Positions 3,160 through 20,128 of a stretch of 64,000 bases of DNA are shown piece by piece. The notes beneath the pieces are model-generated. The model was not told the origin of the DNA. It saw nothing but the letters and a program-made list of their open reading frames with translations, and ran no database searches. Location: assembly GCF_008086165.1 (NCBI RefSeq), contig NZ_VSKL01000004.1:186001-250000 (forward strand), written 5' to 3'. How positions within the stretch are numbered: the stretch's first letter is position 1; the number at the start of each line of letters is the position of its first letter. The DNA is from Algorimicrobium algoritergicola. Lineage in GTDB: Bacteria; Bacteroidota; Bacteroidia; Flavobacteriales; Flavobacteriaceae. The position numbers and the translations under genes were made by a program.

Positions 3160-4719
3160 ATGAATGCTTTCCTTGATTTTTTAGGCGACATATCTTGGTG
3201 GATGTGGATACTAATCGCTTTAGTTTTAGTTGCAATTCGCGATGTATTTTTTCAGAAACACCACACAATAAGTCATAATTTTCCTATTGTAGGTCATTTT
3301 AGATATATTCTGGAAAAAATTGGCCCCGAATTAAGACAATATTTAGTTGCCAATAACCGAGAGGAACTTCCTTTTAACCGTATTGAACGTGGCTGGATTT
3401 ATGCCTCTGCAAAGCACGAAAACAATTACGAAGGCTTTGGAACTGATAGAGATATTTATGCACATCAGCATATTTTTATTAATAATGCCATGATGCCTTT
3501 TAAACTTCCCGAAAATCATCCGCACCTAGCAGATCCTACATTTTTACCTTGCGCCAAGGTTATGGGACTTCATAACAACCGAAGAAAACCGTTTAGACCA
3601 GCATCTATTATTAATGTGAGTGCCATGAGTTTTGGTTCGTTATCAGCCAAAGCGGTGGAATCTATGAACAAAGGTGTAAAAATTGCTAACGCCTATCACA
3701 ATACTGGTGAAGGTGGTTTATCTCCATACCATTCGCATGGTGGTGATGTTGTGTTTCACTTTGGAACCGGATATTTTGGTGTCCGAAGTGATGATGGTAC
3801 TTTTTCTATGGAAAAATTAATTGCTTTAGTGGATAATAATCCATTTGTAAAAGCTATTGAAATAAAACTATCACAAGGTGCTAAACCTGGGAAAGGCGGT
3901 GTTTTACCAGGCGCTAAAATTACACAAGAAATATCAGATATAAGACATGTACCTTTAGGCAAAGATGTCCTATCTCCTCCTAACCATTCTGCGTTTTCAA
4001 ATGTACCAGAAATGATGGTTTTTATAGAACAAATTGCAGAAGCAACGGGATTACCTGTTGGTATAAAAGCGGCCATTGGTAAATTAGAGCAATGGGAAGA
4101 ATTGGCAGACATTATGGTTAAAACTGGCAAAGGCCCAGATTTTATAACTGTAGATGGTGGCGAAGGTGGAACAGGTGCTGCGCCTCCAAGTTTTGCCGAT
4201 CATGTTTCTTTACCTTGGGTTTTTGGTTTTAGTGACTTATATAAAGTATTTAAAAACAGAAACTTAACTGAACGCATTGTTTTTGTTGGTAGTGGAAAGT
4301 TAGGTTTTCCAGCCAAAGCAGCTATGGCTTTTGCTATGGGAGCCGACTGTATAAATGTAGCACGTGAAGCCATGATGAGTATTGGCTGTATTCAGGCGCA
4401 AATTTGCCATACCAATCGTTGTCCAAGTGGTGTTGCTACACAGAGCAAATGGTTGCAAAGCGGTATTGATCCTACCTTAAAGTCTGAAAGGTTAGGACAA
4501 TATTTTAAAACCTTTAGAAAAGAATTTATTGAAATTACACATGCTGCTGGATATGAACATCCTTGTCAGTTTAAAATGAGTGATGTGGCTGTAAATGTGG
4601 ACGACCAAACGTTAACTAAAGAATTAGACAGAACGTATATGTACAACAAAACTGTTGTTCCTTTTACTAGCGTTCAAGACTTGAAAGATTGTCAGTATTT
4701 AGGAGGTTCTAAAGCCTAA
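3160..4719 (+). CDS. FMN-binding glutamate synthase family protein, membrane anchored
   Basis: This 519-residue protein has an N-terminal membrane helix (residues about 12-28) followed by a glutamate synthase central/FMN barrel domain. Features seen are the GEGGLSPYH segment, VDGGEGGTGAAP near the middle, and a three-cysteine Fe-S motif CxxxxxCxxxxC (Cys410, Cys416, Cys421, in the context CHTNRCPSG). In true GOGAT large subunits this domain forms glutamate from 2-oxoglutarate and ammonia. Here the glutaminase and GXGXG domains are absent, so it belongs to the stand-alone FMN-binding family, whose substrate is not settled. Its end overlaps the convergent LytTR gene by 4 bases. Confidence 0.85.
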   Translation: MNAFLDFLGDISWWMWILIALVLVAIRDVFFQKHHTISHNFPIVGHFRYILEKIGPELRQYLVANNREELPFNRIERGWIYASAKHENNYEGFGTDRDIYAHQHIFINNAMMPFKLPENHPHLADPTFLPCAKVMGLHNNRRKPFRPASIINVSAMSFGSLSAKAVESMNKGVKIANAYHNTGEGGLSPYHSHGGDVVFHFGTGYFGVRSDDGTFSMEKLIALVDNNPFVKAIEIKLSQGAKPGKGGVLPGAKITQEISDIRHVPLGKDVLSPPNHSAFSNVPEMMVFIEQIAEATGLPVGIKAAIGKLEQWEELADIMVKTGKGPDFITVDGGEGGTGAAPPSFADHVSLPWVFGFSDLYKVFKNRNLTERIVFVGSGKLGFPAKAAMAFAMGADCINVAREAMMSIGCIQAQICHTNRCPSGVATQSKWLQSGIDPTLKSERLGQYFKTFRKEFIEITHAAGYEHPCQFKMSDVAVNVDDQTLTKELDRTYMYNKTVVPFTSVQDLKDCQYLGGSKA

Positions 4720-5456
4720 TTAAATAAATTTAGAAAAGCTTTTTTGTTTGTTTTAGATATGGGTACTCGGTATTCATTGTCTAAAACAACATAGCCTTCG
4801 TTTTCAAAATGACGTACTTTTTCTAAATTTATAATATGCGATTTATGACATTTAAAAAAATTAGCGCTTAATAATTTTTCAAACTTTCCTAAATTGTAAG
4901 AGCTTGTTATGGTTACACCATTTGTAATATGAATTTTGGTATAACCTTCATAACCTTCTAAATGAAGAACCTCATCTTGAGGTATAAAGGAAATCCCTTT
5001 TTGAGTTGGAATAATGACTTTATTATTTTTAGAAATATTCTCTTCTAAAAGGTTCACTAATTTTAAATTACTAGCACTTTCATTCTTCAATTTAATAACA
5101 TCCAGCGCTTTATTGATGGCAATAACCAGATCGTCATTATCTATAGGTTTCAACACATAATCAATTGCCGATTTTTTAAAAGCTTCAATAGCATACTCAC
5201 TATACGCCGTAACAAAAATGACTTGAAAATTAACATCTGTAAGTTTTGAAAGTAATTCAAAGCCATTTATTCTTGGCATTTGAATATCTAAAAACAGAAT
5301 ATGAACCTCTTGTTTTTCTAATGCAACAATAGCATCTTCAGGTTTCTGATAAGCGCCTAGGATTTGAATTTCTGGAAACAAATTTTCAATCTTTTTCTGT
5401 AACCCTTTGAGATTGGAAATTTCATCATCGACTAATATGGCTGTTATGTTTTTCAT
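4716..5456 (-). CDS. LytTR-family response regulator
   Basis: A 246-residue two-component regulator. The receiver domain occupies residues 1 to about 120, with acidic pocket residues Asp10 and Asp11 (LVDDE), the phosphoacceptor Asp57 (FLDIQMP), and the Thr and Lys of VTAYSEYA and YVLKPI. The C-terminal LytTR DNA-binding domain (about 150-246) includes FKCHKSHIIN and the typical RVPISK ending. Its ATG overlaps the stop of the sensor kinase by 4 bases, so the two are probably translationally coupled and form one signalling pair. The target genes are unknown. The lipoprotein operon upstream (8494-10723) is a neighbour but only a guess as a target. Confidence 0.92.
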   Translation of the reverse strand: MKNITAILVDDEISNLKGLQKKIENLFPEIQILGAYQKPEDAIVALEKQEVHILFLDIQMPRINGFELLSKLTDVNFQVIFVTAYSEYAIEAFKKSAIDYVLKPIDNDDLVIAINKALDVIKLKNESASNLKLVNLLEENISKNNKVIIPTQKGISFIPQDEVLHLEGYEGYTKIHITNGVTITSSYNLGKFEKLLSANFFKCHKSHIINLEKVRHFENEGYVVLDNEYRVPISKTNKKAFLNLFN

Positions 5457-8398
5457 TTTTGTTTTTTAGTAATTATAAACACAGATTTGTTGCCTTTGTC
5501 TACCCTATTTGGATTTAACTCTTCCGCTTTATAATCTATTTCCCATTTTTCAGAATAATTTAAAAAATGCAATCTATCATGCAACACATTAGACGATTTT
5601 ACGTCATCACTTTGTCTGTTATTGGTATTTGCAAAACCTACACCATCATCTATTATTTCTACTTTAAAGGTGTGTTCATCTATGTATATAAAATTTAAGG
5701 TAACTAAACCATTATCCATTTTGTTAAATACACCATGGTTTACGGCATTTTCAACTATAGGCTGCAATAGCATGGTTGGAATTTTGGTGTGCTTTGTAAC
5801 CAAATTAGGATCTACATTAAGCACAAAGTTTAATTTCTCTTTAAAGCGAAGTTTCTCAATTTCTAAATAGTTTTGAAGCAAGCTAACTTCTGTTTCTAAT
5901 GAAATTTCGTTTTCTTTTGAAAGCTCAAAAAATTGCCGAATGAGCTTGGAAAACTTCACTAAATACAACTCGGAAGTTTCAAAATTATTTTCTCCTATAT
6001 AATACTGAATCGCTGAAAGGGAATTGAATACAAAATGCGGATTCATTTGAGAACGTAAGGCTTTTAGCTGTAATTCAGATAAACGCTTATCCTCAAAAAT
6101 TTTCTGATGCTTTTTAAATTGGGCGCGTTTTACAAAATACCTTGATATTAAAACGATGATACTAATAGCTAGTAACACCATGAAAGCTTTATACCAAAAT
6201 TTCTGCCACCACAAGGGCTTAATAATAAAGCTTACTTGATCAGTAAACCCTTGAGTCTCTATGAAAAGCGTGTAGCTGTCTGGTTGAAGGTCATTAAAAT
6301 TCAGGTTATTAGTGGATGTTTGGGTCCAATCCTGATATATGGGTTCTAGTTTGTAATTAAAGGATAAATTCGTCTGCCTTTCAGAATAATCTATATTAGA
6401 GATTTTAAAGTTTATACTACTATTGTCTTCATACTGAAACACCGAATTACGCGTTGTAATGGGTTGATTATTAAATAGTGCTTCCTCAATATAAACATCT
6501 AATAATTGTGGAGTGTGCTTTTGATTTTTTGGTAAAATAGCGATTCCGTTATTGGTACCTATCATAAGTTTCTCTTCATGAACGAGTATATTGTTTACAC
6601 TATTAGATGGCAATCCGTTGTCTTTATCTAATAGCATTTGAAAAACGAACGTATCATTTTCTTTTGTGTATTTTAATACACCAGACTCGGTTGCTAACCA
6701 AATGGTATTGTTTTCTAAATAGGCATTATTTACAATTAGAAATTCGGATTTAGGTAACTGCTTAATGGTTTTTAAATCTGTAATATAAGTGCCAAATCCG
6801 TCAGTATTTAACAAAATCTCTGTGTCTGAAATTTTAGTAATACTTAATATGGATTGATTAAATTCTTTGTTATCAAATTGAATTGAAGAAATCACCTCTT
6901 CTTTAAATTCCTTTAAACCACTTGATGTGGCTACTAAAAACCTATCATTGAATATTAACAATTCATTAATCCCACTTTGTAGATATTCGTTCTCAATACT
7001 AAATTTTTCAGGGTTAATTTTATTGATTCCTACGGAGAATTGCCCAAACAAATAATCATTGTAATAAACAAGCTGACGTGCCTTGTCATTCATTAAATAA
7101 ATACGGTCTTGAACATCAATATCTATAATCGCATTATTTTTTCCCATTTTAATATGACGTTTAGACATGTAAAATTCAGTGTCTAATTCCTCTACATAAG
7201 TGGCCTTAAATAGATATTCGTCTTCGTCTATAAATGGCAAAAATTCATTTTTAGACTGGTTAAACTTATAAAAACCCTTATTAAAAACATTAGCAATAAT
7301 TTTATCATTTACCTTCCCGATATTATTTATTTTCTCGCCGGTTAAACAATATTTTATATTTTGTTTTTCTATTGGTAAGTGGTAAACTCCATCTGTAAAA
7401 GTGCTTATCCAGATAGATCCTGTTTTGTCTATAAGCGCAAAATGGGCTTTTAAATGTTCAGGTATATAGTACGTGTTTCTAATGTGAAAATTTTCATCCA
7501 AAACACCAACAAATCCGTTTCCAGAGATCTGGATTTTATTGTTTACTATATTTATTCTTACGTGTTTAGATTGCTCTAATGCTAGTTCATCCTTAAAATT
7601 CCGATTATGTAATTTTAAAGTATTCAAATTAAGAATAGAATATTGCTTATCATTTACCCAATAAAACAGACTGTCTGTAATTTGACCCCTTTTATGAATT
7701 CTATTCAAGACATCTTTAAAACCATAGCTTTTAATGGTTTTATTGTTTTTATCTTGAACAAAAACAGAGTCCAATAATTCTGTCGTTTTAAAACTAGAAA
7801 TAGTAGGATGGTCAATAAAGCTATTTGCAGCAATAGAGTCTCCTAATCGATACTTGATTAAAAGCTTCCACTTTTCATTTTTTAAAACATGAAATGTATT
7901 AGAACTCGTTAAGAACATTTTATTTCCGACTTGACTTGAATAAATAGGATTAAAAATTTCGCCTTTTAGCTCACTTTCAAAAGCATGAACACTATCATTT
8001 TCAATATATCCTAATTTGGATGATTTAGAGAGGTACCATAATTTTCCATCTGGAGTGGGAAAAACTTCCCAAACATCGTTAGTTGCAAGCCCATCTTTGG
8101 TGGTAAATATTTTCATGGTATTACCATTATACTTAACCAAACCTTTATCTGTAGCAATCCATAAAAACCCTTTTTCGTCTTGGGCTATTTTATAGATATG
8201 GTTACTTGGTAAGCCGTCTTTTGTAGAGTAATTGGTGAACTGTTGCGCGTATGCAAATGCATTTAGGAAAAGAAATACATATAAAAAATAAGCATGCTGT
8301 ATGCTGTGCTCCTGTTTTTTAAAAACATAATATGAAATAGAAAAAAAACGCCATACCAAAATGCATGTTATTCTGATATAGCGTTGTATTTGTTTCAA
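5453..8398 (-). CDS. Two-component regulator propeller (Reg_prop/Y_Y_Y) sensor histidine kinase
   Basis: A 981-residue membrane sensor. After an N-terminal hydrophobic signal (residues about 37-52, ending AYAQQ) comes a large periplasmic beta-propeller built from Reg_prop-type repeats (TKDGLPSN, GFLWIATDKGL). A Y_Y_Y immunoglobulin-like domain (about 640-720) and one transmembrane helix (about 735-752) follow. The cytoplasmic part has a LytS/YehU-type His_kinase domain with the phosphoacceptor His near residue 788 (QMNPHFVFN), an N-box (PIVENAVNHG) and a G-box (DDGVGF). It lacks the fused AraC regulator of hybrid kinases and instead pairs with the overlapping LytTR gene. The first 30 residues before the signal are unusually basic, so the true start may be somewhat later. 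A decayed relative lies at 12291-12392. Confidence 0.92.
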   Translation of the reverse strand: MKQIQRYIRITCILVWRFFSISYYVFKKQEHSIQHAYFLYVFLFLNAFAYAQQFTNYSTKDGLPSNHIYKIAQDEKGFLWIATDKGLVKYNGNTMKIFTTKDGLATNDVWEVFPTPDGKLWYLSKSSKLGYIENDSVHAFESELKGEIFNPIYSSQVGNKMFLTSSNTFHVLKNEKWKLLIKYRLGDSIAANSFIDHPTISSFKTTELLDSVFVQDKNNKTIKSYGFKDVLNRIHKRGQITDSLFYWVNDKQYSILNLNTLKLHNRNFKDELALEQSKHVRINIVNNKIQISGNGFVGVLDENFHIRNTYYIPEHLKAHFALIDKTGSIWISTFTDGVYHLPIEKQNIKYCLTGEKINNIGKVNDKIIANVFNKGFYKFNQSKNEFLPFIDEDEYLFKATYVEELDTEFYMSKRHIKMGKNNAIIDIDVQDRIYLMNDKARQLVYYNDYLFGQFSVGINKINPEKFSIENEYLQSGINELLIFNDRFLVATSSGLKEFKEEVISSIQFDNKEFNQSILSITKISDTEILLNTDGFGTYITDLKTIKQLPKSEFLIVNNAYLENNTIWLATESGVLKYTKENDTFVFQMLLDKDNGLPSNSVNNILVHEEKLMIGTNNGIAILPKNQKHTPQLLDVYIEEALFNNQPITTRNSVFQYEDNSSINFKISNIDYSERQTNLSFNYKLEPIYQDWTQTSTNNLNFNDLQPDSYTLFIETQGFTDQVSFIIKPLWWQKFWYKAFMVLLAISIIVLISRYFVKRAQFKKHQKIFEDKRLSELQLKALRSQMNPHFVFNSLSAIQYYIGENNFETSELYLVKFSKLIRQFFELSKENEISLETEVSLLQNYLEIEKLRFKEKLNFVLNVDPNLVTKHTKIPTMLLQPIVENAVNHGVFNKMDNGLVTLNFIYIDEHTFKVEIIDDGVGFANTNNRQSDDVKSSNVLHDRLHFLNYSEKWEIDYKAEELNPNRVDKGNKSVFIITKKQK

Positions 8399-8493: not shown

Positions 8494-9141
8494 CTAATCT
8501 AAAATTACACCAAAAGTTCCTTCGTAATGCCCTACTATGGTTTCTCCATTCTGATTCAGAAAAACATAATCTGCATTTACAGTACTTTCGGTAGGATTAT
8601 TATTATCAATATTAATAGCATTTATTGTAATGCTTGGTCCTTGTGTTCCTGGAAAATTAAAAACACCCACATTTTCATTTCCCATTCCAAATTCAACATT
8701 ACTAGTAATATAAACTGGCGATAAGGCATCAATTTGTGCATTTTCAATTATTACGGTATCTGTAATACTAGACACCACATACGTGTTTCCTGGAAGTGGT
8801 CCAGCCGCATCCAAAGACGGATTATCCGATACTTGGACATTTAAATACACCCAATTTGTGGTATTTAAAGAAAATAGATAATCGCCAGAAGAGCTATTTA
8901 CATTCGCATCATTATCAAACATTCTTCCATTGGAGAAGAAAAAGCTGTAACTATCTGGCATTCCATTGTTATCCACATCTCCATCATCTATTTCAAAATA
9001 CGCATTTGGCGTTGGGTAAAATACGTTGTTATGCGTAAAACCTTCTGTGGGCGTTATAGGATCCGTCTGCAAATCATCATTATTATCACAACTAAAAACT
9101 GTGAATATCAATAAAACTAAAAGTGTTTTTAAGTTTTTCAT
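8494..9141 (-). CDS. Lipoprotein of unknown function
   Basis: A 215-residue protein with a signal peptide and lipobox (FTVFSC, Cys18) followed by an acidic linker (DNNDD), as in exported Bacteroidota lipoproteins. The mature part is Asn/Asp-rich and beta-rich, with a VDNNGMPDSYSFFFSNG segment resembling a loop that could bind calcium. No family is recognised. It is the last gene of an apparent three-gene operon with the two lipoproteins upstream (16- and 66-base gaps). Confidence 0.75.
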   Translation of the reverse strand: MKNLKTLLVLLIFTVFSCDNNDDLQTDPITPTEGFTHNNVFYPTPNAYFEIDDGDVDNNGMPDSYSFFFSNGRMFDNDANVNSSSGDYLFSLNTTNWVYLNVQVSDNPSLDAAGPLPGNTYVVSSITDTVIIENAQIDALSPVYITSNVEFGMGNENVGVFNFPGTQGPSITINAINIDNNNPTESTVNADYVFLNQNGETIVGHYEGTFGVILD

Positions 9142-9157
9142 AATTTTAAATACTGTT

Positions 9158-9607
9158 TTATGGCGTTACATCATCAATTATGACACATAATTCTGCTTCA
9201 AAGCCATTATCCAAAAGAATATCGAACCTTAACTCATCTCCAACGGCACTTCCTGCTCTTTGGCAAGTAATAACTCCTGCATAATCCGCACCGTCTATTC
9301 GAATTTCTGGATTAGAATCTACAGCGCCTAAAGTAAGCGCTCTCGTTACGATAAAAGTTGTACCAGGATCGGTGGTGTAAAAAACTTCTACAACCGGTAT
9401 ACCTGGACCATCATTGTTAGGGAAATAATCTGTTTGTAATTCAGCTTCAGGAATTAATGTTTGTGTATTATTTATAAGCGCTGTTAAGCCCTGATAGTTA
9501 CAAACATTCTCATTTGGTGATGTAAGTGGGTCGCCATCGTCATTATCACAGTTAAAAATTGCTAATGCAAAAACTAGTAGGCATAGAGATTTGATTATTG
9601 TTTTCAT
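9158..9607 (-). CDS. Small lipoprotein of unknown function
   Basis: A 149-residue protein with a signal peptide and lipobox (AIFNC, Cys20), followed by the acidic run DNDDGD. The mature domain carries three more cysteines (in NVCNYQ, VITCQR and ELCVII), of which two could form a disulfide. The sequence is otherwise unfamiliar. It is the middle gene of the 10723-to-8494 operon. Confidence 0.7.
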   Translation of the reverse strand: MKTIIKSLCLLVFALAIFNCDNDDGDPLTSPNENVCNYQGLTALINNTQTLIPEAELQTDYFPNNDGPGIPVVEVFYTTDPGTTFIVTRALTLGAVDSNPEIRIDGADYAGVITCQRAGSAVGDELRFDILLDNGFEAELCVIIDDVTP

Positions 9608-9673: not shown

Positions 9674-10723
9674 TTATTGTCCGAGCGTTATAAAATTACC
9701 AAAACCACTGGCTAAACTGGCTTGCAATACAAAGTTATTTCCAGATATATCATAAATATGCAGTCCATCACCATCCGTTACATAGGCATGATTATCGTGT
9801 AAGGCCACGCCGCTAGTTTTATTCAGAGATTTCAAATCTACCAATGATAAGGTTGCTAGATCATACATTCTAACTCCATCGTAACTGTTTTGTAAAGGGG
9901 CATTAGTACTAGCTTTCATGGTTACAAAAGCATGACCATTATGAATAGCAAAGGCCGTTGGATAACCTTCTAAAGACACTTCATTAATTAATATTAATGT
10001 GGCCGCATCAAATTGCTTTATTTTTTTATCAATTGTATTTGCTACAAAAAGATGAACGCCATCCGTTTCAACCCAGCTATGGTAGTGGCCAAAAGGTGAG
10101 TCGCTGTAAAAAGCCACATCAATATCTGTATTATTTAAAGTTCCAGTGGCTGTTGGAATACCTGGATTTGTAACATTATAACCATGCAAACCACTGGCCT
10201 GATCTATTACAAATAGTTCGTTTTGCACGTTTGTGAGACTCATGGCAGCTCCTCCCAAATTAACTTGAGAACTAAAGTTGAAATTAGCTAAATCTAATAC
10301 ATGCAATCCCCGAAAAATATCGGTTATATACCCCACATTATTTACTGTGTACATATCGCTTAACAAACTAAAAGCAAGCGAATTGTCCTTTGGAATTGTA
10401 AGCGAAACCGCTGGAGCTGTTGCAATACTAATATCTATTAAACTTAAATAAGGCGCCGTAGCATCGTACTGTGCTACATAGGCAACATTGGGCGATACAC
10501 TTACAAAATAGGATGTGTTTACTGAAATACTGCTCGCAAAAACGGGTGCTGTAGGCGTTGCAACATTTATAATTTTTAAATCGTTACCATCCGTTATATA
10601 CGCATATTGTGGCGTAATTGTACTTCCCGAAGGACTTGAGGAGCTATTATCGCTACAACCGAGTACCAGCGTGAGTAAAACTGTAACAGTTAGTAATGTT
10701 TTAGCTTTGATAGTAATTTTCAT
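9674..10723 (-). CDS. LVIVD-repeat beta-propeller lipoprotein
   Basis: A 349-residue surface or periplasmic lipoprotein. The signal peptide ends in a lipobox (LVLGC, Cys23) followed by a Ser-rich linker. The mature part consists of repeats with the pattern aYvtdg..L.i.nvs.P..p (for example YAYITDGNDLKIINV, GYITDIFRGLHVLDL, HAYVTDGDGLHIYDI), which is the LVIVD propeller signature. Such propellers usually bind partners and have no catalytic role. It is the first gene of the lipoprotein operon and reads toward the sensor kinase gene. A 400-base region without an intact gene lies upstream. Confidence 0.8.
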   Translation of the reverse strand: MKITIKAKTLLTVTVLLTLVLGCSDNSSSSPSGSTITPQYAYITDGNDLKIINVATPTAPVFASSISVNTSYFVSVSPNVAYVAQYDATAPYLSLIDISIATAPAVSLTIPKDNSLAFSLLSDMYTVNNVGYITDIFRGLHVLDLANFNFSSQVNLGGAAMSLTNVQNELFVIDQASGLHGYNVTNPGIPTATGTLNNTDIDVAFYSDSPFGHYHSWVETDGVHLFVANTIDKKIKQFDAATLILINEVSLEGYPTAFAIHNGHAFVTMKASTNAPLQNSYDGVRMYDLATLSLVDLKSLNKTSGVALHDNHAYVTDGDGLHIYDISGNNFVLQASLASGFGNFITLGQ

Positions 10724-10776: not shown

Positions 10777-10945
10777 TATAATTTGAAAACTGTTAGACTA
10801 TAATCATCCGATTTTAATGAATTTTTACAGATGAATTTTTTAAATAGTTCATCTATAATACCATCGCAATCATTATCAATACCATCCTCAATTTCAAGTT
10901 CCTAGGGATGAATATCTCCATTAGAACATATTACCTAGATTTTTC
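10777..10945 (-). pseudogene. Remnant of a MopE-type metal-binding repeat
   Basis: The 10724-11124 interval has no intact gene, but on the minus strand one frame reads NGDIHP, a TAG stop, then ELEIEDGIDNDCDGIIDE and about 25 further residues to a stop. The motif DGIDNDCDG.ID is the signature of the putative metal-binding (PF11617/MopE-like) repeat carried intact by the gene at 12434-13126. In-frame stops (plus-strand CTA at 10902-10904 and another upstream near 10934) and the absence of a start or signal peptide show this is a dead fragment. Nothing else is recognisable between 10946 and 11124 apart from AT-rich sequence. Confidence 0.6.
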
Positions 10946-11124: not shown

Positions 11125-12054
11125 TTAAAAATAAATATCAAATTTTTGAATAATTGCCATAAAATCCATTAAAAATGCGACTCCTATATGAATAATAATT
11201 CCGCCAATAATAGATTTACTGTGCAAAGAAATAATCCCTAAAAGATAACCGCCAAATATTGAGCCTATAATCTCTCCAGTAGGTTTTCCAACATGAAAAA
11301 AAACATATAATGCTACCATAGGTAAAATAGACTTTGAGCCCAAAATTTTAACCATACTTAAAACAAGAAATCCTCTAAAAAACCATTCTATAGAAATAAA
11401 ATCTAATAAATATGCAGGTTCATAAATAGCTAAAGCATTCATCTTATTTATGGTGTTACCTGTATAACCAATTGAAGGATATTGATTTAAAAAACTAGGT
11501 TGAAATGATGCAAAAATAATAACAGGAATTACAAATAGCAAGAGTAAAAAATATGGTTTCCCACTTAAATTTTTCGTTGAAAAACCATAAAAATTGGTGT
11601 TATATTTTTCAAAAAAATAATAGAAAAATAAAATTCCGAAGGAAAATATAATGGTACGCATTGCTCTTGTAGCAATTTTAATATAAAAAAAAGCTTTTTC
11701 AGGTGCAATATTTTCATAAATCCATTTGTAGTGTTCTAAAAATCCTAATCGTAAACTCACTAAAAGAATAGCAAATATGCTAGTAAACCAAAAACCACGC
11801 GATTTTATAAAGCTATAATCTGATTTTGTAAAAACTATTATTGCTATTGTAGCGTAATAAGCAAATCCAAAAAATAAAAAATAAGACACTACAAGTAATG
11901 GCGTATTTATAGTATGACTTAAAAAATTTACAGCAAAATCTGTAACATGATTTATAGAGATAAAAACACTTAAAAACAATATAAAAATCAGGTATGTAGA
12001 GGTCTTATAATCTTCTTTTAGATGTGTTCTTATATATTTTACTATGGTTTTCAT
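11125..12054 (-). CDS. CPBP-family (Abi/Rce1-like) membrane protein with altered active site
   Basis: A 309-residue polytopic protein with about eight hydrophobic helices. The C-terminal third resembles CPBP/CAAX intramembrane endopeptidases: IEWFFRGF (222-229) corresponds to motif EExxxR, FFH at 252-254 to FxxxH, and His289 to HxxxN. The first glutamate of EExxxR, which is catalytic in the Rce1 family, is Ile222 here. The usual Phe of motif two is Tyr250, and the Asn of motif four is Ala293. It may therefore lack protease activity or be a diverged branch. The gene is noticeably AT-rich and sits between two stretches of MopE-repeat and sensor-kinase debris, so it may have been inserted there. 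Confidence 0.65.
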   Translation of the reverse strand: MKTIVKYIRTHLKEDYKTSTYLIFILFLSVFISINHVTDFAVNFLSHTINTPLLVVSYFLFFGFAYYATIAIIVFTKSDYSFIKSRGFWFTSIFAILLVSLRLGFLEHYKWIYENIAPEKAFFYIKIATRAMRTIIFSFGILFFYYFFEKYNTNFYGFSTKNLSGKPYFLLLLFVIPVIIFASFQPSFLNQYPSIGYTGNTINKMNALAIYEPAYLLDFISIEWFFRGFLVLSMVKILGSKSILPMVALYVFFHVGKPTGEIIGSIFGGYLLGIISLHSKSIIGGIIIHIGVAFLMDFMAIIQKFDIYF

Positions 12055-12433: not shown

Positions 12434-13126
12434 CTAGGTATTATCTTCACCATCACAATTACTGTCTATCCCATCATTTAAGAATTCTCTAGTATATGGG
12501 TGAATATTAGCATTAGTATCATCACAATCTAAATTATTATTTACACCTGCTGCTGGTGGAGGCAAAGCACTACCTGCTCCATAACCATCGCCATCTTCGT
12601 CTGTGTAATATTCTACGATGTCTATATCTCCATCACAGTTATCGTCTATTCCATTACCTACAATTTCATCGGCTAATGGATTTATAGCTGCATCATCATC
12701 ATTACAGTCTCCTGCATAATATGAATATCCGCTAGGTATACTTTCATCTACCAGTAATTCTAAAACTTCTGTTTCTTTCCCAAAACCATCTCCATCTGCA
12801 TCTACAAATAAAGTGATAGATATGTAACCATTACAATCCTCATCAACTCCATTATCAAGAATTTCTGTTGCTCCTGGATATACAGTTGCATCGTTGTCAT
12901 TACAATCGGTGTTATCCATGACGTAATTTGCAGGAACGTAACTAGTTGCGTAAGAAGTAGGAGATTCAGATGCATCGCCATAGCCATCTTGATCTATGTC
13001 TGGCCAATAATTTTGGAAATCTTGAGGTGGACTACTTATACCATCCCCACATCCTGAACCTATTATAAATACTGCTGTTACTAATAGTAGACCAGGTAAA
13101 ATTGTTTTTAAAAATCGTTTTTTCAT
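12434..13126 (-). CDS. MopE-like lipoprotein with three putative metal-binding repeats
   Basis: A 230-residue lipoprotein with a signal peptide and lipobox (GSGC, Cys26). The mature part has three units. Each has an Asp-rich loop (DIDQDGYGD near 43, DADGDGFG near 109, DEDGDGYG near 176) followed by DCND/DCDD (74, 140, 200) and then a GxDxxCxG motif (93-100, 158-165, 218-225). This is the PF11617 'putative metal-binding motif', found in MopE, the copper-repressed surface protein of Methylococcus. Binding of calcium or copper here is inference. The start lies 4 bases after the stop of the Lgt-like gene, so they form an operon. Related dead repeats lie at 12085-12279 and 10777-10945. Confidence 0.85.
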   Translation of the reverse strand: MKKRFLKTILPGLLLVTAVFIIGSGCGDGISSPPQDFQNYWPDIDQDGYGDASESPTSYATSYVPANYVMDNTDCNDNDATVYPGATEILDNGVDEDCNGYISITLFVDADGDGFGKETEVLELLVDESIPSGYSYYAGDCNDDDAAINPLADEIVGNGIDDNCDGDIDIVEYYTDEDGDGYGAGSALPPPAAGVNNNLDCDDTNANIHPYTREFLNDGIDSNCDGEDNT

Positions 13127-13130
13127 AATG

Positions 13131-13931
13131 TTAAGTATTAAGTGTGTTAATATTAATTTGTTTATAGAATTTATAATAGAAATAAGCGGATACAGAAATA
13201 AGGCAAAGCGCTATGAATTGGGAATGAGATAGTAAGTTATCTATAATATAGCCGCGTTCATCGCCTCGAAAAAGCTCTAAAATTCCTCTTCCAAAAGCAT
13301 ATAACATTAAATAGATTAGGAATACCTGACCTTTAAATTGTTGATGCTTTTTAACAAGTAACAGTATTAACATAATAGTAAATATCATACTGCTCTCATA
13401 CAATTGCGTTGGGTGAACTGCCATATTTTGTGCTGTTGGAAAAACCAATCCGAATCCACTTTCTGTTGGAGAACCATAGCAACATCCTGCCGCAAAACAG
13501 CCTAGTCGTCCAATAGCATGTACAATAGTTGTTGTTATTGCAAAAATATCTAGCATGGGCAAAACTGGTATTTTATGCCTTTTTAAATACCAGATGATAT
13601 AAGGGATGATTACGACAAATGAACCATAAAACACAAAGCCGCCTGAAAAGTTATCAGACATTAAGCTTGGATTTTGAAGATATAGCAATGGGTCTTGTAG
13701 GTAATAAAATAGTTTACCTCCCACAAAACCAGCAATAAAAATGCAATAGAAAAATGTGTTTGATAGATTGTTGATTCCCAATTCCTTTTTTGCACGCCAT
13801 CTTGTATAAATTGCAGCCACCAATGTTCCTAGTGCAATTAAGGCCGCATAAGAGTATATAGTGATTTCCTGTATTCCAAGAATACGTGATAGAAAATCGG
13901 GTAGTGAAAAGCTAAAAAGTTCTGTAAACAT
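13131..13931 (-). CDS. Prolipoprotein diacylglyceryl transferase-like membrane protein
   Basis: A 266-residue polytopic protein with about seven hydrophobic helices and the general plan of Lgt, which attaches diacylglycerol to prolipoprotein cysteines. Lgt-like features are HAIGRLGCFAAGCCYG (138-153), HPTQLYE (173-179) and a C-terminal GRGILELFRGDERG segment. It differs from canonical Lgt in two ways. The HGGL motif, whose His is essential in E. coli Lgt, is SGGF at 96-99. The GRxGNFxNxE signature is replaced by the Cys-containing version. It is therefore likely a paralogue with its own role. It lies between a T9SS-exported protein (5-base gap) and a MopE lipoprotein (4-base gap), so a dedicated partner is plausible. 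Confidence 0.75.
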   Translation of the reverse strand: MFTELFSFSLPDFLSRILGIQEITIYSYAALIALGTLVAAIYTRWRAKKELGINNLSNTFFYCIFIAGFVGGKLFYYLQDPLLYLQNPSLMSDNFSGGFVFYGSFVVIIPYIIWYLKRHKIPVLPMLDIFAITTTIVHAIGRLGCFAAGCCYGSPTESGFGLVFPTAQNMAVHPTQLYESSMIFTIMLILLLVKKHQQFKGQVFLIYLMLYAFGRGILELFRGDERGYIIDNLLSHSQFIALCLISVSAYFYYKFYKQININTLNT

Positions 13932-13936
13932 CGAAA

Positions 13937-15829
13937 CTATTGTTTAATTATTTTTTTGGTTGAAATACCTTGCCTAGTTTCTACTTGTAAAAAGTATAAT
14001 CCGTTGGATAGGTTTGAAATATTTAAAGAATTTGCACCTGATTGAAGTTTCCCTTGTTTAATAACTTGACCGTTTAAAGTGATTAAACTATAATGTGCTT
14101 CATTTTTAATAGAAATTGTAAATTGATTATTTACGGGATTGGGGTATATATCAATTGAGTTTTCAATGTTATTAGCATCTTCCAAAGAAAGCGTTGCATC
14201 TATTTGTGTCGTTGCCGTATTTGTTATAATCGGTAAATTATAATCGAAATAAATATCTGCTGAACATTCTACAATATCTCCAATTACAAAACCAGATACA
14301 GTTTTAGCTTTAAAAACCACAAAACCATGACTGTTAGGTTCATCTGAAGTACTATCTGCTAGATTAATATTATCAAATTTAAAATTTACTTGATCCCCAT
14401 TTATAGACGTAACATAACTATGCGATGCATAAATTGGCATAAACGTAGACCAATCTATATCTGCATCTAAAACCGTGTTTACATTAATATTGATGGCAGA
14501 AGCTGTACCTGTATTCTGAAAACGAATTCTAAAGTATAAATCATCTAAAGCTTGCGAGGCTGAAATTAATGGTCCTTGTAATACAACGGCGTCGTTAGGA
14601 TCATAGGATCCAATTGTTATTTGTTGTAAAATAAACGTGTTATTTGCTGAATTTGCATCACTGCTTGGACTTATAGCCGCATCAAACAATAATACATCTC
14701 CATTAGTTACTGTTGGAGGTGTATTAATATTAAAGAATACATGAATAACTCTAGTTTCAAATGGCAATAAATTTGAATAATTCCAAGACAATGAGTTTGA
14801 GGTGGAAGTATCTTCAATTGGAGCTGAAGATAAATGATTTACTGTAGTATTATCAAAAGACAAATCAACAGAGCCTGAAGCTGCAGTGTCTCCATTATTA
14901 GTATAAACGATACTATATCCACTATTAAATCCTGGTCTTGCATCTGTAGTTGGCACAATTACAACTTCTACATCTGCGCCTGAAAGGTTGGATGTAATAC
15001 AAAAATCCTGATTTGAAACCGCTTGACTTGTAGTGAATGTATTAGAATAATTAGCAGGATTAGATGTTATTACGGCATTGGAAATTTCAGTTGTAACAGT
15101 TCCTGCTTCATCAAAAAGAAACCCATAATTACCTAAAGTATTTGTATTAGAAAAATATACATTACCACTAGTAGAAGCCGTGCTTTTAACTTGAATATTT
15201 TCCGGCGTATATGTTGAAGTGGCACAGTTATCTGCGTTATCATCATAACTTACCTTTCCATATATGCCATGTGGCGAATTATCTTTATATAAGTTAATTG
15301 ATCCAAAGTTATAGGTCGTATCGTAATTGTTAGAATCTAAATTTCCTATTGTTCCGGATAATTCTAAATAATAATTTCCTGTTGTATCGATTAAAAAAGG
15401 AGAGCTTTCGCAAAAATCCATTTGTCCAGGACCTCCAAAATACGCAGTGCAATCTAAATTAAACGTTTGCACTACAGCACCTGAGGCGTTTTTTAAAACC
15501 ACACTAGACAAAGTCCCCATTTGACTTGCACCCATCATAGCATCAAAATAATAATAACCGTATTCTGTAAAGAAAACATAGTTTTCATTTGCGAATAATG
15601 GAAATAATGATGATTGAATTACAAATGGCTCCTCATTAAAAGTGGCATTCTCTAATGCCAAAACACCACTTGTATAGGATGTGTTAGAGTTAGACATACT
15701 AACGTTATTTCCAGTTAGCGTCCAACCATTTAAATCGGTGGCAAAATCAAAATTTGGAATATTAATATTTTGAGCCTTAATGAAATATAGATTGCAAATT
15801 AATGCAAGAAAAAGTAATTTTATTTTCAT
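13937..15829 (-). CDS. T9SS-exported protein with type A C-terminal sorting domain
   Basis: A 630-residue protein with a signal peptide (cleavage near residue 19, FIKAQ) and a beta-sandwich, Asn/Thr/Ser-rich body. A conserved-repeat type domain (YDPNDAVVLQGP to SADIYFDYNLP), common just before sorting domains, comes next. The C-terminal sorting domain (about 556-630) has IYPNPVNNQFTI and ends in TKKIIKQ. It should cross the outer membrane by the type IX system and be attached to the surface or released. No catalytic motif is visible. The first part (about 20-180) resembles a carbohydrate-binding-type jelly roll. It appears to be the first gene of the operon with the Lgt-like and MopE-like genes. 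Confidence 0.85.
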   Translation of the reverse strand: MKIKLLFLALICNLYFIKAQNINIPNFDFATDLNGWTLTGNNVSMSNSNTSYTSGVLALENATFNEEPFVIQSSLFPLFANENYVFFTEYGYYYFDAMMGASQMGTLSSVVLKNASGAVVQTFNLDCTAYFGGPGQMDFCESSPFLIDTTGNYYLELSGTIGNLDSNNYDTTYNFGSINLYKDNSPHGIYGKVSYDDNADNCATSTYTPENIQVKSTASTSGNVYFSNTNTLGNYGFLFDEAGTVTTEISNAVITSNPANYSNTFTTSQAVSNQDFCITSNLSGADVEVVIVPTTDARPGFNSGYSIVYTNNGDTAASGSVDLSFDNTTVNHLSSAPIEDTSTSNSLSWNYSNLLPFETRVIHVFFNINTPPTVTNGDVLLFDAAISPSSDANSANNTFILQQITIGSYDPNDAVVLQGPLISASQALDDLYFRIRFQNTGTASAININVNTVLDADIDWSTFMPIYASHSYVTSINGDQVNFKFDNINLADSTSDEPNSHGFVVFKAKTVSGFVIGDIVECSADIYFDYNLPIITNTATTQIDATLSLEDANNIENSIDIYPNPVNNQFTISIKNEAHYSLITLNGQVIKQGKLQSGANSLNISNLSNGLYFLQVETRQGISTKKIIKQ

Positions 15830-16056: not shown

Positions 16057-16575
16057 ATGGAAGGACAAATAATAAACCTATTAATGTTTACAATTCCAGC
16101 AATTATTACTGGATTAATTGCTTATTACTTTTTTAAAGAACATACAAAGAATGAAGACGGCAGACGCCGGTTTTTACTGCATAAAGACATGCAAACAAAC
16201 AGCATGCCTATTCGTTTGCAGGCTTATGAGCGTATGGCACTTTTTCTAGAACGTATTACGCCTTCAAAATTACTGATTCGTGTAGCCCCACTTTCTGCTA
16301 ATAAGGAAGATTACGAGTCTTTATTAATTCAAAGTATAGAGCAAGAATTTGAACACAACCTATCCCAGCAAATATATTTGACGGACGATTGCTGGAATAT
16401 TATTACAGCTGCCAAAAATGCAACCATGCAACTTATTAGAAAAGCCGCGTTGTTAGAAAAAACAGATACTGCTAATAAACTACGCGAAGTAGTCCTGACG
16501 GAAATGATGGAAAAGCGTGCGCCTAGTGATGCCGCTTTATCATTTATTAAACAAGAAGTTGGCGAAATGTGGTAG
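16057..16575 (+). CDS. Conserved flavobacterial membrane protein, unknown function (possibly DUF7935)
   Basis: A 172-residue protein with one N-terminal transmembrane helix (about 5-26, LLMFTIPAIITGLIAYYFF) and a soluble, mainly helical domain. Conserved-looking phrases are RLQAYERMALFLERI and EFEHNLSQQIY followed by CWN. I recall this as a family of unknown function in Flavobacteriia, possibly DUF7935, but cannot confirm the number. It has its own promoter and is followed by a trio of unrelated-looking membrane proteins. Confidence 0.75.
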   Translation: MEGQIINLLMFTIPAIITGLIAYYFFKEHTKNEDGRRRFLLHKDMQTNSMPIRLQAYERMALFLERITPSKLLIRVAPLSANKEDYESLLIQSIEQEFEHNLSQQIYLTDDCWNIITAAKNATMQLIRKAALLEKTDTANKLREVVLTEMMEKRAPSDAALSFIKQEVGEMW

Positions 16576-18311: not shown

Positions 18312-19205
18312 CTATTCCTTATTTTTTGTATGCCTTTTCTCTGCATACTCATAGCCTTGCTGCCACCATGCGGTCATTAGTCGTTTACTAAATATCAACG
18401 AATTCTCTGTTAAGCTTGATGGTGTGTAATATAAATTGAGTTTAACACCTCTATTTTTTGCAGCCAATTTGCCAATTATAATATCATTTCGTTCTACCTG
18501 ATTTAATAAATGTCCAAATAGGTTAATCATTAATGAAAACGGATTTTTCCCAAGTACTTTTTGATGCTCAATATTTTCCGCTTCTAATATAATGGCATCC
18601 ACTTCCGTGGCACCTCTATTTATGGCTTCACGGATTGGCACTACACAGCCCAAACCACCATCTGCATATTCAAACCCATTAACTTTTGCAATGGACATAA
18701 ACGGAATATAGTTGCATGAAATCCAAATCCAATTACAGAACTCATCATAGGTACAATCTTTAATCGACTTATACTCGACTGAATTTTTAGACAAATTTGA
18801 AACAGTAGCAACAACGTCCTTATTTTCTGCTCGAATTTTTAGGTATTCTTCTTTCGTGAAATTCCGTTTAATATGGCGCCTTAAGGCTTTACTCTCCCCA
18901 AAGGTTCGTTTTCTTCGAATAAATTGCCATATTGAATTTACAAAATCAATAGACACATATTCGCGATCTCCTTTTTTACGTTGCACAAATGGACTAACAC
19001 TAAAAATATCATGTTGTTGCACATTGGTATACATATCATACAGTTTTGGAATATTATTAACCGCTAAATGTGGAATTAATAAACTCCCTGTAGATGTTCC
19101 TAAAAACATATCGTAGGTTTTACCCTCTTTCTCCATTAAATATTGTGCTACACCTCCAGCATAAGCACCTTTACTTCCTCCTCCTGATATGACTAATGCT
19201 TTCAT
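18312..19205 (-). CDS. Patatin-like phospholipase (second of a tandem pair)
   Basis: A 297-residue patatin-family serine hydrolase. It has the oxyanion-hole motif GGGSKGA (8-14), the nucleophile elbow GTSTG with Ser38, and the catalytic dyad Asp182 in ADGG. There is no signal peptide, so it is probably cytoplasmic or membrane-associated and acts on phospholipids or other lipid esters. Its ATG overlaps the stop of the upstream paralogue by 4 bases, so they are translationally coupled. The two are colinear along their whole length (for example KSIKD/KSIND and WIWISCNY in both), the product of a tandem duplication. Confidence 0.9.
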   Translation of the reverse strand: MKALVISGGGSKGAYAGGVAQYLMEKEGKTYDMFLGTSTGSLLIPHLAVNNIPKLYDMYTNVQQHDIFSVSPFVQRKKGDREYVSIDFVNSIWQFIRRKRTFGESKALRRHIKRNFTKEEYLKIRAENKDVVATVSNLSKNSVEYKSIKDCTYDEFCNWIWISCNYIPFMSIAKVNGFEYADGGLGCVVPIREAINRGATEVDAIILEAENIEHQKVLGKNPFSLMINLFGHLLNQVERNDIIIGKLAAKNRGVKLNLYYTPSSLTENSLIFSKRLMTAWWQQGYEYAEKRHTKNKE

Positions 19206-20128
19206 TGCTCTGGTATCGTTTCAGTTTCTATTTCTAACGGGCTTGTTTCTGTGTTTTTATATTTGGCAAAATCGAAACCACTTTGCCACCATTTAGTCAT
19301 TTTCTCCTTATCAAAAACTAACGAATTGGTTGTTAAAACCGTTGGTGTATAATAAAAATTAATTATCGCATTTTGATTATTAGCAACAAACTTCCCTATC
19401 CGCACATTCTGACTTTCAATTCTATCCAACATAAACGCAAACATATTAGTTAGTAGTGAAAATGCGTTAATGGATGGCATTCTATTAAAAGAGGTCACTT
19501 CCGTTTGCAATATAATAGCATCAACCGTTGTGGCACCACGTCTAATAGCTTCTTCAATAGGAACCATGGAACCCAATCCACCATCCGCATATTCACAGCC
19601 ATCCTTTTTAACTAGCGTCATAAAAGGCGTATAATTACACGAAATCCAGATCCATTCGCAATATTCCTCATAGCTAAAATCGTTAATTGATTTATATTCC
19701 ACCTGGTTTAAAGATAAATTTGAAACCGTTACCACCACATCCGTTTTTGAGGCTTTTAAAACGCCAAATTCACTTTCTGAAAGCGTATTCTGAATCAGCT
19801 TTTTTAAATTATGACTTTCGCCAAATGTTTTACTGCCTCGAAATAAATTCCGAAGGACATTAAAGTGATTAATACCAATAGTTTCAACCCCTTTTTTCTT
19901 TTTGATGGTAAATGGACGACGATTAAAAATAGCATTCTGATTCACATTGGTGTAAACCTGCTTTATTTTCTCCGCATTTTTTAATCCCAAATGGGATACG
20001 AGTAAACTCCCTGTGGATGTCCCGATAAGCAAATCATACTCATGCCCTTTTTCTTCAATTAAATATTGCGCCACACCTCCTGCAAACGCACCTTTACTTC
20101 CTCCTCCTGAAATGACTAAAGCACGCAT
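19202..20128 (-). CDS. Patatin-like phospholipase (first of a tandem pair)
   Basis: A 308-residue patatin-family hydrolase with GGGSKGA (8-14), GTSTG with nucleophile Ser38, and the ADGGLG Asp motif about two thirds along. All catalytic elements are intact. It differs from the downstream copy in having a longer acidic tail (ETETIPEQ at the end). The M1 aminopeptidase gene ends 2 bases before its start only in the sense of map order: the peptidase is upstream on the same strand and its stop is at 20131, giving a tight three-gene unit. Confidence 0.9.
   Translation of the reverse strand: MRALVISGGGSKGAFAGGVAQYLIEEKGHEYDLLIGTSTGSLLVSHLGLKNAEKIKQVYTNVNQNAIFNRRPFTIKKKKGVETIGINHFNVLRNLFRGSKTFGESHNLKKLIQNTLSESEFGVLKASKTDVVVTVSNLSLNQVEYKSINDFSYEEYCEWIWISCNYTPFMTLVKKDGCEYADGGLGSMVPIEEAIRRGATTVDAIILQTEVTSFNRMPSINAFSLLTNMFAFMLDRIESQNVRIGKFVANNQNAIINFYYTPTVLTTNSLVFDKEKMTKWWQSGFDFAKYKNTETSPLEIETETIPEQ

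Follow-up and report, generated by a model that had tools for sequence, protein, structure and literature searches.

The 64,000-nucleotide stretch of Algorimicrobium algoritergicola DNA analysed here (contig NZ_VSKL01000004.1, positions 186,001 to 250,000; hereafter the window, from a genome of 3.54 Mb) encodes a second prolipoprotein diacylglyceryl transferase, Lgt2 (266 amino acids, positions 13131 to 13931, minus strand), directly followed by the gene of a lipoprotein with an unusual signal peptide. We found that Lgt2 and this special-signal lipoprotein are the conserved unit of the locus, and that the constant part of the partner is its signal peptide and not its MopE-type domain. On balance, we favour the view that Lgt2 is a specialised second Lgt whose single, private substrate for recognition and lipidation is the prolipoprotein encoded by the next gene.

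Results

The partner gene (positions 12434 to 13126, minus strand) encodes 230 amino acids with three MopE-type repeats (PF11617, 92.2 bits, above the cut-off). We compared the window with 21 distinct related loci, giving 22 rows; in the following, L labels denote loci and G labels genomes. L039, L043, L045 and L048 were left out of the counts as duplicates (the same loci as L024, L025, L029 and L035), as was L047, where the contig ends inside Lgt2. The gene directly 3' of Lgt2 encoded a lipoprotein with a signal ending in [IV]-G-x-[GS]-C at 21/21 loci, and the gap between the two genes was exactly 4 bases at 16 of them. This adjacency is more than chance. A sequence-only reading of the window had suggested a dedicated partnership between an Lgt-like enzyme and a MopE-type lipoprotein within a set of three genes, and had added that the linkage would be chance if homologues of the three were rarely adjacent in related genomes. 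The partnership stood up in the comparison, with the signal peptide rather than the MopE domain as its constant element, and rare adjacency applied only to the third gene, a putative secretion cargo upstream of Lgt2 that is described below.

The putative cognate signal peptide of the partner (positions 13049 to 13126, minus strand) comprises 26 residues with Pro11 and Cys26, and ends in IIGSGC. A signal of exactly 26 residues with Pro11 was found at 19/21 loci as well as in the window. Compared with the consensus lipobox [LVI][ASTVI][GAS]C given in PMC4728403, the cysteine, the residue at -1 and the hydrophobic region fit, whereas the position at -3 is occupied by glycine in the window and at 21/21 loci. 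Among partner pairs with 50-70% identity in the mature part, the signals were 0.70 identical (75 pairs); for lip149, another lipoprotein family of these loci, the signals at the same mature identity reached 0.39 (21 pairs) and 0.55 (16 pairs). Comparison of codons for identical residues in the partner signals revealed synonymous differences in 1,108 of 2,926 cases (38%). Therefore, selection acts on the peptide. Downstream of the cysteine, residues +2 to +6 vary (GDGIS, TGDPS, PADDG and others), as judged against the lipoprotein export signal (LES) motif C-X-K-(D/E)2, which is SDDFE in F. johnsoniae.

Glycine at -3 is rare outside the partner slot. Only 1 of the 69 other lipoprotein calls at the 21 loci carried it, the remaining 68 being ordinary (Fisher p 1.3e-19, without correction for the relatedness of the loci). 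In the window's genome, 400 kb were sampled and gave 39 lipobox calls, three of them with Gly at -3, namely the partner, a metabolic-looking false call and a plausible signal, SLIFLGTSC. Searching the whole genome at the DNA level for [IMVFL]-G-[SA]-G-C yielded three matches, of which only the partner is a signal. With a stricter pattern applied to 397 genomes of the family, 149 matches were listed in 117 genomes, and seven of those listed are the partner in a genome with Lgt2; the partner signals of five other Lgt2 genomes fall outside this pattern. We read the contexts of 70 of the 149 matches, which comprised three partners and 67 others, and one of the 67 (L250) represents a plausible lipoprotein signal.

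Behind the constant signal, the mature part of the partner is exchanged. Mature domains of MopE type were present in 16/21 partners; the other five are lip149-type (L030 and L044), a shared type of 166 amino acids (L031 and L035) and a weakly immunoglobulin-like protein (L034). On the tree, four changes of cargo class are needed, with the signal retained. When the L030 and L044 partners are compared with other lip149 proteins, identity is 0.49 over the mature part and 0.41 over the signal; against MopE-type partners the values are 0.28 and 0.59, respectively. In the partner slot, lip149-type proteins carry IGSGC. Overall, lip149 was found in 14/378 genomes; seven of these do not have Lgt2, and the boxes are ordinary in 7/7. 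A structural model of lip149 was all-beta (predicted local distance difference test score, pLDDT, 84.8). No Foldseek match was obtained for this fold at E<=0.001, and the best VIA-align Z of 7.5 (LpqH) lies in a range common for unrelated models.

The window itself contains a remnant of a MopE-type C-terminus (positions 10848 to 10922, minus strand; ELEIEDGIDNDCDGIIDELF, then a stop). It resembles the C-termini of the relatives' partners, and the present partner of the window ends differently. This suggests a replacement of the cargo end, the remnant probably being the displaced end of the old partner.

Lgt2 and its partner are gained and lost together, and the rest of the surrounding gene island can persist without both. 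This conclusion is based on G300, from the genus of the Lgt2-bearing G098, where the site retains lipoproteins, kinase and regulator and has neither Lgt2 nor a Gly-3 lipoprotein, and on the ordinary boxes of lip149 in Lgt2-less genomes. In two further genomes without Lgt2 (G002 and G005), the genes that flank the island in the window are direct neighbours and there is no island.

Lgt2 belongs to the Lgt family (PF01790, 177.3 bits, cut-off 24.9). Its signature G-R-L-G-C-F-A-A-G-C-C-Y-G places it in the cysteine type, and it is distinct from the housekeeping Lgt, the second of two PF01790 genes in the window's genome, which has an asparagine-type signature (IRIGNFINSEIIG). When Lgt2 is aligned with the E. 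coli enzyme, Y26, R143, E202, Y235, R239, E243 and R246 are retained as Y28, R142, E179, Y211, R215, E219 and R222. These seven residues are invariant in 22/22 rows, as is G153, the equivalent of E. coli G154. An AlphaFold model (pLDDT 74.9) had a single match in the PDB at E<=0.001, E. coli Lgt itself (5azb, E 1.4e-8, TM 0.69). We infer that Lgt2 is enzymatically active.

There are differences as well. H103, N146 and E151 of E. coli correspond to Tyr102, Cys145 and Cys150 in Lgt2, and the head region, between the signature and HP[AT]QLYE, measures 19 residues versus 53 in the housekeeping Lgt. Lgt2 scored 103.5 bits against the lgt equivalog TIGR00544, below its cut-off of 118.9. The H103/N146 pair that characterizes E. 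coli-type Lgt is not found in Lgt2, and this bars membership of the E. coli subtype only, because PMC13251419 reports such replacements for other Lgts, including enzymes with N146 changed to Cys.

In a tree of 64 proteins, cysteine-type and asparagine-type Lgts separated with 100/100 support, and Lgt2 formed a single clade (100/99) within the cysteine type; its nearest rows, joined with 100/98 support, came from three f22 genomes that belong to the same class. No IGSGC partner was found beside the Lgt of these three f22 relatives or of two f38 ones. The window's Lgt2 is 91% identical to one from Xanthomarina sp. F2636L. Lgt2 is sporadic in Flavobacteriaceae, occurring in 12/397 genomes of the family and in 4/6 of the genus. 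Order-level and phylum-level searches detected it in 1/395 (its own genome only) and 6/395 genomes (its own included), respectively; these alignment-query searches score six candidates per genome, and weak relatives may escape. Where it occurs, Lgt2 is an extra copy. All nine Lgt2-bearing genomes of the family that were tested had 2-4 Lgt genes, and Lgt2-less G002 had one. Four PF01790 genes were observed in a single Flavobacteriaceae genome, G338.

Outside Flavobacteriaceae, the gene for signal peptidase II (lspA) lay directly upstream of the cysteine-type Lgt at 5/5 loci scanned, with a pseudouridine synthase gene downstream at the single locus scanned for it. The cysteine-type enzyme was the only Lgt found in 3/7 donor-like genomes tested. 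Thus, the cysteine type can serve as the main, housekeeping Lgt outside the family. Glycine at -3 was seen in 0/10 lipobox calls from 67 loci of donor-type genomes, a number too small to judge. At two loci (L149 in G800 and L151 in G921), a cysteine-type Lgt gene lies directly downstream of a lipoprotein gene whose box, LLQC, is odd in having Gln at -1; the two genes may form a further dedicated pair.

The usual order of the island is DUF7935, in some cases a gene for a cargo of the type IX secretion system (T9SS), Lgt2, partner, further lipoproteins, a propeller-type histidine kinase and a LytTR regulator. In the window, the T9SS gene (positions 13937 to 15829, minus strand) encodes a type A cargo of 630 amino acids with DUF7619 (PF24595, 159.8 bits) and a C-terminal sorting domain (PF18962 Por_Secre_tail, 56.9 bits; TIGR04183, 52.4 bits, cut-off 23). 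All three genes lie on the minus strand with spacings of 5 and 4 bases, and the open reading frames and family matches agree with the earlier description of three packed genes with gaps of 4-5 bases. However, the T9SS protein turned out to be an inconstant neighbour. Its gene stood directly upstream of Lgt2 in only 4/22 rows, the window included, with four changes on the tree, and the triplet was rejected as the conserved unit. One of the four is a remnant of 75 amino acids (L036, positions 7768-7995) in which both ends of the 630-residue protein are kept and the middle is missing. A longer relative of the T9SS gene occurs further upstream in L038 and L040.

Downstream of the three genes, the unit in the window extends on the minus strand through a CPBP/Rce1-like membrane protease (positions 11125 to 12054; PF02517, 26.3 bits), three lipoproteins with ordinary lipoboxes, a histidine kinase with a two-component regulator propeller (5453 to 8398; PF06580, 73.7 bits; PF07494, 47.1 bits) and a LytTR response regulator (4716 to 5456; PF00072, PF04397). 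The three lipoproteins are an LVIVD-repeat protein (9674 to 10723; PF08309, 31.5 bits), lip149 (9158 to 9607), whose domain is the one found in the partner slot of L030 and L044, and lip215 (8494 to 9141). The island is flanked on the plus strand by a DUF7935 gene (16057 to 16575; PF25589, 211.7 bits) and a glutamate synthase-domain gene (3160 to 4719; PF01645, 271 bits). DUF7935 flanks the island at 15/21 loci, the kinase is within view at 16/21, and the glutamate synthase-domain gene is within view on the far side at 4/21 and in the window. At L023, L036, L037 and L032 the island comprises little beyond Lgt2, the partner and the two-component system.

The CPBP protease was present at 3/21 related loci (L023, L026 and L040), where it accompanies one MopE sub-type, and it weakly matches the archaeomyxosortase MrtA (NF040590, 40.5 bits, cut-off 200). 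C-terminal sorting by this protease was rejected as a core part of the system, because the partner does not end in a membrane helix and the protease occurs at so few loci. The islands of L027 and L030 encode lipoproteins of 366-377 amino acids with collagen-like repeats (GVDGVDGQDG). Elsewhere in the window (positions 18312-20128, minus strand), two neighbouring similar proteins both begin with M-[KR]-A-L-V-I-S-G-G-G-S-K-G; by eye, they look patatin-like.

Discussion

We propose that the partner is first exported by Sec and that Lgt2 would then add diacylglycerol to its Cys26. The recognition tag would be the whole signal peptide, that is, usually 26 residues with Pro11, the conserved hydrophobic stretch and the Gly-3 lipobox. 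Cleavage of the lipidated partner would fall to the general signal peptidase II, and the partner would travel onward by the general lipoprotein route. If the substrate is chosen by its signal and not by its cargo, this would explain why the signal is fixed and the mature domain behind it exchangeable. The propeller kinase and the LytTR regulator are linked to the module and probably either control it or respond to it. More tentatively, the locus may represent a private lipidation channel, in which an acquired cysteine-type Lgt and its cognate 26-residue signal with exchangeable cargo operate beside the housekeeping Lgt under their own two-component control. In that case, the identity of the signal would already sort lipoproteins at the Lgt step, in addition to any later sorting.

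Several observations weigh against a specialised Lgt2. The rows are related, and 21/21 does not amount to 21 independent events. The signal of the L035 partner has 25 residues and no Pro11, and the L033 partner has no in-frame ATG. Lgt2 deviates from E. coli at H103 and N146. Moreover, Gly-3 is not exclusive to the partner. The one exception among the 69 other calls is a second lipoprotein in L031, with IGTSC and a signal resembling that of the partner, SLIFLGTSC is a further plausible Gly-3 lipoprotein in the window's genome, and L250, in the Lgt2-less G307, carries ILIGSGC in a plausible signal with a non-ATG start. Since these lipoproteins carry Gly-3, the housekeeping Lgt may accept such signals, and the two enzymes may not be strictly orthogonal.

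In the main rival explanation, Lgt2 would be a second Lgt of redundant or broad function that arrived with the cassette and was kept by linkage. Either enzyme would then lipidate the partner, and the signal would be constant through linkage and co-inheritance. The few ordinary lipoproteins with Gly-3 fit this explanation, as does the co-inheritance of Lgt2 and its partner, and we give it a modest chance. Co-inheritance alone, however, leaves unexplained the retention of the signal through four replacements of the mature domain, the divergence at synonymous sites and the ordinary boxes of the neighbouring island lipoproteins (68/69). A different explanation assumes that Lgt2 uses another lipid donor, so that the partner would receive a different anchor and destination and the special signal would separate lipoprotein classes. 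The changes of the active-site residues H103 and N146 and the short head are consistent with this, as arm-2, H103 and the head are substrate-specificity determinants of Lgt according to PMC13251419. Yet cysteine-type Lgts elsewhere are housekeeping enzymes beside lspA, so the changes need not imply another donor, and we consider this explanation improbable.

The sequence-only reading had connected the MopE-type repeat with copper and envisaged a surface module for metal handling. Such a module would combine a copper-binding lipoprotein and the T9SS protein, with Lgt as a helper. We regard this as improbable. The PF11617 repeats in 16/21 partners and in the window speak for it, and their acidic residues could bind Ca2+. 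The copper site of MopE, as described in PMC3423442, consists of two His and a kynurenine derived from Trp, whereas the window's partner contains a total of 1 His and 1 Trp among its 230 residues. With these ligands lacking and non-MopE domains in the same slot at 5/21 loci, we rejected a MopE-like copper function. The presence of the T9SS gene in only 4/22 rows also speaks against the module.

The usual picture of Lgt is that of a general enzyme guided by a lipobox of four residues. Should a cell contain, beside its general Lgt, another one that serves a single signal peptide, the substrate choice of Lgt would become directly testable on a natural set of two enzymes and two signals. In that case, lipoprotein classes would be separable at the first modification step, and the signal would offer a naturally modular tag for the study or engineering of lipoprotein display.

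Comparison with known systems

Second Lgts and cysteine-type Lgts are already known. For an Lgt dedicated to a cognate signal, our searches of the open-access literature, which does not cover subscription papers, showed no precedent. With E. coli Lgt (PF01790, 5azb), Lgt2 has the family, the fold and most essential residues in common. It differs in being an extra copy, in the replacement of N146 and E151 by Cys and of H103 by Tyr, in its short head and in its fixed neighbour with a distinct signal. The cysteine-type Lgts of Acidobacteriota and Nitrospirota (the Leptospira type in PMC13251419) share the G-R-x-G-C-F signature and a large clade (100/100) with Lgt2. Those enzymes often adjoin lspA, whereas Lgt2 adjoins its private lipoprotein, and the genomes concerned carry an Lgt of the asparagine type as well.

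The same source counts approximately 1,300 genomes with two lgt copies. The second copies that it describes in Streptomyces, M. smegmatis and plasmids of the B. cereus group are, like Lgt2, extra and sometimes near lipoprotein genes; section 13 of that source mentions no cognate signal peptide for them. The Aat system offers an analogy, since its acyltransferase AatD modifies the system's own secreted protein, CexE. AatD, however, acylates an N-terminal glycine (PMC7943197), is not an Lgt and is unrelated to Lgt2. Exosortase/PEP-CTERM and myxosortase systems likewise combine a processing enzyme with a homology tag recognisable on varied cargo. Their tags are C-terminal and cut by a protease, whereas the proposed tag of the Lgt2 partner is an N-terminal lipoprotein signal.

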